From Halostagnicola kamekurae (GTDB lineage Archaea; Halobacteriota; Halobacteria; Halobacteriales; Natrialbaceae), in contig NZ_FOZS01000002.1 in assembly GCF_900116205.1 (NCBI RefSeq), positions 124,001 to 188,000 of the forward strand: a DNA stretch of 64,000 bases, given 5' to 3'. The stretch's first letter is position 1, and every line of letters starts with the position of its first letter. The position numbers and the translations under genes were made by a program. Of this stretch, positions 10,749 to 11,900 are shown one piece after another. The notes beneath the pieces were generated by a model. It worked only from the letters and a program-made list of their open reading frames with translations, was not told where the DNA came from and did not search any database.

Positions 10749-10985
10749 ATGACAGCCCAACTCACCACGACGACCGCCACCAACCGAGCCGCGTTACCGA
10801 CTGAGCTGAACTCGGCGCAGGCGAAGCTGGTCTACCTCTACCTCGACGCGACAGCGGGTGCGACGATCCGCGAGGTGAGCGACGCGCTCTCGATGAAGCA
10901 GATGGCCGCACTGAGCGTTACCAAATCGCTTTCGACGCAGGGATTGATCGAGAAGACCGGCGACGAGTACGTTACCGTTCACTGA
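10749..10985 (+). CDS. Small winged-helix transcriptional regulator
   Basis: A 78-residue protein (MTAQLTTTTATNRAALPTEL...). The single HTH is LVYLYLDATAGATIREVSDALSM-KQMAALSVTKSLSTQGLIEKTGDEYVTV, with a helix, the helix-turn-helix, and a two-stranded wing ending EYVTV. This is the MarR/TrmB-like fold common among small haloarchaeal regulators. No effector domain is present. The start at 10749 is preferred over 10692 because the upstream residues are not HTH-like. Target genes are unknown. Confidence 0.7.
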   Translation: MTAQLTTTTATNRAALPTELNSAQAKLVYLYLDATAGATIREVSDALSMKQMAALSVTKSLSTQGLIEKTGDEYVTVH

Positions 10986-11041
10986 GCCTGGCCTCGAGAC
11001 CTGGCCAGTCCGATGTCGTCTACAGGCGGAGCAGGCCGGGT

Positions 11042-11118
11042 GCCTCGGGGTCGTACGGAAATCGGAGATTTCCGTGATGACGAGAATCTCCGATTCTCGA
11101 ACCACTTGACCCCGAGGC
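11042..11118. other. Three-way-junction palindrome (two hairpins inside an 11-bp stem)
   Basis: An outer perfect stem GCCTCGGGGTC (11042-11052) pairs with GACCCCGAGGC (11108-11118). Inside are two perfect 8-bp hairpins: CGGAAATC-gga-GATTTCCG (11056-11074) and CGAGAATC-tcc-GATTCTCG (11081-11099). The loops gga and tcc are complementary, and the cores aatcggagatt and aatctccgatt are reverse complements of each other. It lies 57 bases after the HTH gene stop and well before L10e, in no reading frame. It could be a structured RNA, a recombination site or a mobile palindromic repeat. Confidence 0.75.
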
Positions 11119-11159
11119 GGTTCACATATCTGGCTGTAACCGACGGGTTTCCGTTCTAG

Positions 11160-11234
11160 ATCGGTTGCTGACTCCGACCGATTGCCGTCACCGACCAGTT
11201 GCCGCCCCAATCGATTGCCGTCGCCGATCAACTG
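11160..11234. repeat. Degenerate short tandem repeats
   Basis: Five diverged copies of a 16-18 base unit are visible, with a core of cgattgccgtc or its variants: ggttgctgactccgac, cgattgccgtcaccgac, cagttgccgccccaat, cgattgccgtcgccgat, caactgccgctc. They lie between the palindrome at 11042 and the promoter of the L10e gene. Their role is unknown; they could be leader or binding-site repeats. Confidence 0.5.
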
Positions 11235-11369
11235 CCGCTCGAGTTTTCACGACCGGCACTAACGGTGGTCGATCCGCTTTTATCGCGGGCACGACGCAGA
11301 CGACGGTGGCGACGGGTTCGAAGCCTTTATCCGCGCGGTAGCACTCCGTTTTTGTAAGTAACTACAACC

Positions 11370-11900
11370 ATGTCAGAGAAACCCGCCTCTATGTACCGGA
11401 AGATCGATAAGCCGGCCTACACCCGCCGAGAGTACATCACCGGCATTCCGGGCTCGAAAATCGCACAGCACAAGATGGGAGACGTCGCGGCCGAACCCGA
11501 GGACTACCCAGTTCAGATCAGCCTGCAGACCGAAGAAGAGTGCCAGATCCGCCACGGATCGCTCGAGGCCTCCCGACTGTCGGCGAACCGCCACATGCTG
11601 AAAAACGCGGGCGAGAACCAGTACAAGATGATCCTGCGAAAGTTCCCCCACCACGTCATCCGGGAGAACAAGCAGGCGACCGGCGCCGGTGCAGACCGTG
11701 TCTCCGACGGAATGCGCCAGGCGTTCGGCAAGATCGTCGGCACGGCCGCCCGAATCCAGCAGGGCGAGCGCATCTTCACGATCTGGTGTGACGTCGAGGA
11801 CGCCGAGTTCGCGAAGGACGCGCTCCGGCGGTCCTACAATAAGATCTCGCCGCCGTGTCGCGTCGTCGTCGAGCGCGGCGAAGAAGAACTGATCGCATAA
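11370..11900 (+). CDS. rpl10e: 50S ribosomal protein L10e (uL16)
   Basis: A 176-residue large-subunit protein near the peptidyl-transferase and tRNA sites. It begins [20 protein letters not shown] and has the family landmarks [36 protein letters not shown] and [22 protein letters not shown]. Length matches archaeal L10e. It is monocistronic here, with a TATA-like tttatccg about 45 bases upstream and a short leader, cagacgacgg-rich. No anomalies. Confidence 0.96.

Follow-up and report, generated by a model that had tools for sequence, protein, structure and literature searches.

IS200/IS605-type elements are expected to insert without duplicating their target, which in the case of IS608 is TTAC. 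Terminal-only remnants of IS605/IS1341 elements, the PATEs, are found down to a length of 52 bp in Haloquadratum and originated by deletion between the two end palindromes (PMC3119063). The near-terminal palindromes of PATEs and IS605-type elements are, in turn, targeted by the SMR-A small mobile repeats (HqIRS42, 43 and 55), which are about 110 bp long, have prominent terminal inverted repeats and have been proposed to inactivate IS605-type elements (PMC3119063). When small mobile repeats residing in IS605-type palindromes were described in 2011, their movement was called "enigmatic" (PMC3119063).

Here, we consider an intergenic palindrome at positions 11042-11118 of a haloarchaeal chromosome segment from Halostagnicola kamekurae (the window, that is, the whole analysed stretch of 64,000 nucleotides). 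The palindrome is flanked by a short unassigned ORF that ends at 10985 and by the gene of ribosomal protein L10e/L16, which starts at 11370; there is no tnpB beside it. The initial annotation described a perfect 11-bp outer stem (11042-11052 paired with 11108-11118) enclosing two perfect hairpins with the loops GGA and TCC, and all of these are present, with 9 bp in hairpin A and 8 bp in hairpin D. It also held that so strict a complementarity is hardly accidental. Since the folding z-score relative to dinucleotide shuffles is -5.1 (0 of 200 as good) and copies recur both in the own genome and across the order, the palindrome is, indeed, not a product of chance. As argued below, it is best explained as a whole by two nested, transposase-free mobile elements that would move as single-stranded DNA, the inner one most likely being a passenger or parasite (Table 1), a reading to which we assign a probability of about 0.72.

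Table 1. Parts of the 102-bp composite element in window coordinates; the limits were drawn from the empty site L062, the own-genome copies and both ends of intact TnpB transposons
Feature	Position	Strand	Remarks
Target CTAC (TCTAC)	11020..11023	+	directly 5' of the element, single occurrence; empty site L062
Whole composite: terminal-only PATE with twin-hairpin insert	11024..11125	+	102 bp
PATE left end AGGCGGAGCAGGCCGGGT	11024..11041	+	corresponds to TnpB transposon left end; L101 upstream of tnpB: CTACAGGCGGAACAGGCCGAGTGCCTCGGGGCTTGACCCCGAGGGTGAA
Host palindrome, left arm GCCTCGGGG	11042..11050	+	empty form downstream of tnpB in relatives
54-bp twin-hairpin insert TCGT...AACCA	11051..11104	+	covariance model R1 (match G000:C2:135051-135104); empty/filled pairs
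Hairpin A CGGAAATC-GGA-GATTTCCG	11056..11074	+	GNA loop; 9-bp pairing 11055-11063/11067-11075
Central linker TGATGA	11075..11080	+	read as insertion site of the second module (~49-51 bp) in four-hairpin copies
Hairpin D CGAGAATC-TCC-GATTCTCG	11081..11099	+	pairing 11081-11088/11092-11099; TNC loop, GNA on the opposite strand
CTTGA, host palindrome loop before insertion	11105..11109	+	empty palindromes of relatives
Host palindrome, right arm CCCCGAGGC	11110..11118	+	empty palindromes of relatives
PATE right end GGTTCAC	11119..11125	+	corresponds to TnpB transposon right end

The outer element belongs to the terminal-only PATEs: in its 48 bp, the left and the right end of a TnpB (IS1341/IS200-IS605-type) transposon are joined through the palindrome that they have in common. 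None of the places read at the TnpB genes of the own genome shows the matching right end; the parent transposon was, therefore, sought in relatives and traced via relatives of the tnpB gene that adjoins one of the copies (L029). Most of the close tnpB relatives end in a simple hairpin, ...GCCTCGGGG-CTTGA-CCCCGAGGCGGTTCAC; the empty palindrome GCCTCGGGG-CTTGA-CCCCGAGGC follows tnpB at L093, L094 and L098-L101, among others, and the sequence common to the regions downstream of tnpB runs to ...CGAGGCGGTTCAC before diverging. At L101, the left end of the transposon reads CTAC|AGGCGGAACAGGCCGAGT and is followed by the same palindrome. In the window copy, such a left end, a single palindrome and the right end are joined without any intervening gene, which identifies it as a fused, terminal-only PATE. 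Its ends and near-terminal palindrome are the same as those around tnpB in many relatives, it has a short 5' target and no terminal inverted repeats or target duplication, and it contains no transposase gene, for which 102 bp, or 48 bp without the insert, would be too short. A Y1 transposase is encoded elsewhere in the own genome (G000:C2:754531-754869). The empty 48-bp fused PATE was found in 30 DNA stretches of named haloarchaea, from Natrinema to Haloferax and Haloquadratum.

An empty site for the whole element is seen at L062, which belongs to a genome of the same genus (G004) and is the nearest relative with the same gene order. There, ...ATCGTCCAC|ACTATCCG... corresponds to ...GTCGTCTAC|element|ATATCTGG... 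in the window, the junction bases being GTCCAC|A(C)TATCC and GTCTAC|element|ATATCT, respectively. This comparison places the element at 11024-11125, 3' of CTAC and without target duplication, so that the limits given initially, 11042-11118, captured the palindrome correctly but were too short. In a related PATE of genome G045, TCTAC stands 5' of the element in all 11 copies with a visible 5' end. Just 3' of the composite, at 11140-11238, there are four imperfect 32-nt direct repeats (CCGA..GATTGCCGT..), which, being partly present in L062, are older than the insertion.

Two sources contribute to the 11-bp outer stem: the host palindrome (GCCTCGGGG/CCCCGAGGC) supplies 9 bp, and the remaining 2 bp are formed by the first TC of an insert pairing with the GA of the host loop CTTGA. 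At four loci (L092, L095, L103 and L117), the hairpin downstream of tnpB likewise carries a two-hairpin insert between GGGG and CTTGA. This insert is a 54-bp unit of the form TCGTn-hairpin-nGAT[G/C]A-hairpin-AAC[C/G]A, in which each hairpin has an 8-bp stem and a 3-nt loop; its ends are TCGTTCG/CGAACGA in the GATCA subtype and, with weaker pairing, TCGT.../...AACCA in the GATGA subtype. The unit is nested in the host palindrome, the two being found apart as well as together.

Clean presence and absence of the unit at the same base of homologous DNA is observed in the right palindrome, in the left palindrome (L027 is filled, its own right end L098 is empty) and at two sites within tnpA coding sequence, TGTCG|CTCCAC and CCGAAG|CACGC, where the difference is 54 bp. 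One copy (G236:C1:727730-727783) lies within a PF01797 match (727598-728011). The unit also occurs in tnpB genes, in other palindromic repeats (G138 and G078 loci) and in a repeat of G154, without target duplication and almost always between G and C: among 111 copies with distinct flanks, G precedes the unit in 103 of 110 and C follows it in 108 of 111. The coding insertions identified here affect transposon genes (tnpA, tnpB), and several of them bring in a stop codon. In copies within or close to coding sequence, the linker is often GGATCA instead of TGATCA (L095 1057-1110, in tnpA; L100, L103, L170, L171, L196); in the L095 tnpA, an in-frame TGA is thereby lost, so that the insertion adds 18 codons in frame, right ahead of the HUH motif. 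A long, high-copy repeat in one genus (CCAAAGCCCCAGCCGCGAGG ... CCTCGCGGCTGCCCCTTTGAGTCCCACCCCGC; G138/G078 loci L223-L232, L241 and L242) carries the unit in a palindrome of its own.

By their flank pattern, 78 of the 111 copies reside in a near-terminal palindrome of PATEs or TnpB transposons, and the unit carried by the G045 PATE exceeds the PATE core in conservation (98.6% versus 91.5%). Both observations would fit if the twin hairpins were native to some TnpB transposon ends, as an extended omega-RNA or end hairpin, and the empty palindromes were deletions. This is, however, very improbable: the unit, always of 54 bp or a close variant, is cleanly inserted in tnpA, tnpB and unrelated palindromic repeats, and, within one transposon family, occupancy of the left end, the tnpA sites and the right end differs from copy to copy (a comparison that leaves aside the tnpB data of L096). 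The coding-sequence insertions, in particular, largely refute a native origin.

The stems of the inserted unit are kept in a way that is characteristic of DNA. Of the 1568 stem pairs in 98 distinct copies, 1554 (99.1%) are Watson-Crick, 6 are G-T and 8 are mismatches; since a copy was included only if no more than one of the 8 positions of each stem was unpaired, the overall figure is biased upward, and the informative part of the data is the covariation and the scarcity of G-T. In an alignment of 22 sequences, there are 41 double-change cells and a single one-sided change, and the covariation score was matched by none of 500 shuffles. Had the stems evolved as RNA, G-U intermediates should be more frequent, hence the reading of the stems as DNA; the covariation that the initial annotation proposed to look for is thus there, as that of DNA palindromes. 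The loops are GNA (83) or TNC (67) in 150 of 196 cases (77%, against an expectation of 12.5%), and the closing C-G pair is nearly invariant (194 of 196). C(GNA)G mini-hairpins are unusually stable in DNA. Hairpin A favours GNA and hairpin D favours TNC (Fisher p = 7e-7), so that each strand tends to present a GNA loop in its 5' hairpin.

This strand symmetry of GNA and TNC is sufficient to yield complementary loops in a given copy without any kissing interaction. Direct loop complementarity, noted at the outset and present in the window, is found in 21 of the 98 copies against 15.4 expected (p = 0.064), and the equally noted reverse complementarity of the hairpin cores (inner 11 nt) is present here but recurs in only 3 of the 98; both features are, therefore, largely particular to the window copy. 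Kissing loops, as a candidate conserved feature, were rejected on these numbers. Of the two readings offered initially, a palindromic DNA unit of the REP/MITE-like kind has held up, the sequence being a dispersed, mobile, transposase-free repeat, whereas the kissing-loop three-way-junction RNA has not. A cellular role as a structured non-coding RNA of that kind, or as a variant omega-RNA scaffold, deserves consideration because the omega-RNA region of TnpB transposons includes their right-end palindrome (PMC12558985) and because strong transcription of a 489-bp PATE has been described in a halovirus (PMC10544981). Yet such a role has very little to commend it here, given that loop complementarity is not conserved, G-U pairs are nearly absent, RNA energies favour one long hairpin (-46.7 kcal/mol) over the three-way form (-41.5 kcal/mol), Rfam yields no match (cmscan, E up to 1) and the window copy has no adjacent tnpB. 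With DNA energy parameters, the twin-hairpin form is the minimum.

The same excess of double over one-sided changes (41 to 1) is what templated correction would produce, and the stems could have been kept perfect by quasi-palindrome correction, via template switching at replication forks, with the units being passive relics. We regard this as rather improbable, inasmuch as it leaves unexplained the fixed length of 54 bp, the 77% of GNA/TNC loops, the near-invariant C-G closing pair and the G|C site; concerning, as it does, the cause of the covariation, it can also be compatible with nested elements.

The search of the genome and its relatives, suggested in the initial annotation, returned matching copies in both. 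In the own genome, there are several full copies of the palindrome along with partial ones; a covariance model built on the inner part recognizes nine loci, namely, five two-hairpin and four four-hairpin ones. DNA matches were obtained in 40 of the 61 genomes searched (the own one and 60 relatives), and 259 of 293 Halobacteriales genomes contain the unit according to the covariance model, the copy numbers per genome being "at least" values; among the weaker matches, some represent longer variants (58-66 nt) with an unchanged architecture. When genomes were drawn from the whole phylum, 32 of the 33 listed members of the order gave matches, versus 7 of about 164 others, with weak scores. Hence, the unit is essentially specific to Halobacteriales. 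Phage records gave no match, and a single scan of viral contigs with one strict pattern gave 0 matches.

The four-hairpin loci of the own genome (L216, L217, L219 and L221) feature a second module, TCAA-hairpin-7 nt-hairpin-T[T/C]AG, which is about 49-51 bp long. These copies, of about 105 bp, are read as having the second module nested in the central linker of the first unit. The module was seen in such linkers in both orientations (at the same four loci and at L049; inverted at L047, ~1510-1600) and also on its own in tnpA (L094, L097, L099, L113 and L114), at one codon position, after WCPK, in distinct transposon subfamilies. A regular-expression census, which is an undercount, gave at least 4 copies. 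Other kinds of twin hairpin occur in the same repeats as the unit (L231 and L241, from G138 and G078; in Haloquadratum C23, the region of L237), an example being CAGAACGC-nnn-GCGTTCTG ATTGGCT CACGAGAGC-nnn-GCTCTCGTG, suggesting that there are more families. One might tentatively envisage an order-wide class of autonomous twin-hairpin DNAs, with at least two families of 49-54 bp, that insert as single strands into the tips of palindromes and into each other, a hairpin-into-hairpin mode that would be new; we consider this possible rather than probable.

As to the origin of the composite, a 48-bp PATE inserted 3' of CTAC without target duplication, and the 54-bp unit was placed, again without duplication, between G and C at the tip of the PATE palindrome. 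A Y1 (HUH) TnpA, acting in trans, would move the composite in the form of single-stranded DNA. The unit itself may, with less certainty, have entered via a single-strand reaction that makes use of its stable GNA hairpins: a reaction of Y1 type is suggested by the clean insertion at a dinucleotide without duplication, the symmetric stable hairpins and the hosts that themselves move as single strands. In a hand-picked set, 14 of 16 genomes rich in the unit and 5 of 11 without it have a Y1 domain (Fisher p = 0.033). The two exceptions among the former, G078 and G133, have many model matches with no Y1 transposase detected today, and they speak, like the 5 genomes that have the domain but not the unit, against a link; such co-occurrence is suggestive at most. 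The unit and the composite could also have spread partly via recombination between palindromes. A hybrid copy in L182 (~390-443) has the left flank of a tnpA insertion site and the right flank of a right-end palindrome, consistent with recombination between two unit copies that deleted the intervening DNA.

Genome G045 contains 12 copies of a PATE of about 460 bp at unrelated sites; the unit or a variant occupies the left palindrome in 12 of 12 and the right one in 0 of 12, although the two palindromes are nearly identical. A PATE carrying the unit in its left palindrome has, thus, reached many sites. Repeated independent targeting would be expected to hit both palindromes, so this PATE most likely already carried the unit as it spread, which speaks against a role in inactivation alone, of the kind proposed for SMR-A (PMC3119063). 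The higher conservation of the G045 unit, calculated over seven copies (L243-L249), looks as if the unit were under constraint or more recent. Most likely, TnpB transposons carry the unit as a passenger or parasite, and it fulfils no cellular function at the window locus. With exact ends, the insertion dinucleotide, empty/filled pairs and a model with matches in 259 genomes at hand, the mobilising enzyme can be sought directly. Moreover, a unit lodged in the right-end palindrome of TnpB transposons, beside the start of the guide, amounts to a natural perturbation of RNA-guided nuclease scaffolds, and the G045 copies suggest that its insertion alone does not stop the host element from spreading.

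Comparison with the known systems begins with the PATEs, or terminal-only IS605/IS1341 remnants, of Haloquadratum walsbyi (PMC3119063). The outer element shares with them fused TnpB-transposon ends, a near-terminal palindrome, the lack of inverted terminal repeats and of target duplication, a short 5' target and a terminal gap that is longer on the 5' side than on the 3' side; it differs in its length (48 bp versus 52 bp) and in bearing an insert at the tip of the palindrome. The inner unit resembles SMR-A (PMC3119063) in being tiny, devoid of a transposase, inserted without target duplication and located in near-terminal palindromes of PATEs and IS605-type elements, and Haloquadratum walsbyi C23 (G094) has both the 54-bp unit and 108-110 bp repeats. 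For these reasons, the insert might be taken for one of the SMR-A repeats. It is, nevertheless, set apart by the SMR-A description: it has 54 bp rather than about 110 bp and two GNA hairpins, it also occurs in other repeats and in tnpA and tnpB, and the 12 G045 copies that reached separate sites indicate that its insertion is not simply inactivating. De novo detection in the 800 kb of C23 that were read yielded abundant 108-110 bp repeats with terminal inverted repeats; their sequence is unlike that of the unit, which rules out their identity with it and makes an SMR-A assignment of the insert unlikely. Copies of one of them, F3, sit inside transposon palindromes, as described for SMR-A (PMC3119063), so two kinds of tiny element share one niche. 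In these 800 kb, which belong to C3 of the C23 genome, a repeat 109-110 bp long with the ends ATAGTGATTAGT/ACTAATCACTAT and about 16 copies is mostly outside any evident transposon palindrome and usually flanked by TG/GA.

REPINs and BIMEs, the paired REP hairpins moved by the Y1 protein RAYT (PMC3116915, PMC2817692), likewise combine two short hairpins in imperfect inversion, and their dispersal presumably proceeds through a single-strand reaction. The unit differs from them in having no RAYT partner found, in its strong preference for transposon palindromes and in its restriction to Halobacteriales. The palindromic elements of Rickettsia are short palindromic units that lie in coding genes and have a length that is a multiple of three. 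The unit is similar in its palindromic nature, its coding insertions and its length, likewise a multiple of three; unlike in Rickettsia, its identified coding insertions are in tnpA and tnpB, and several of them carry a stop codon.
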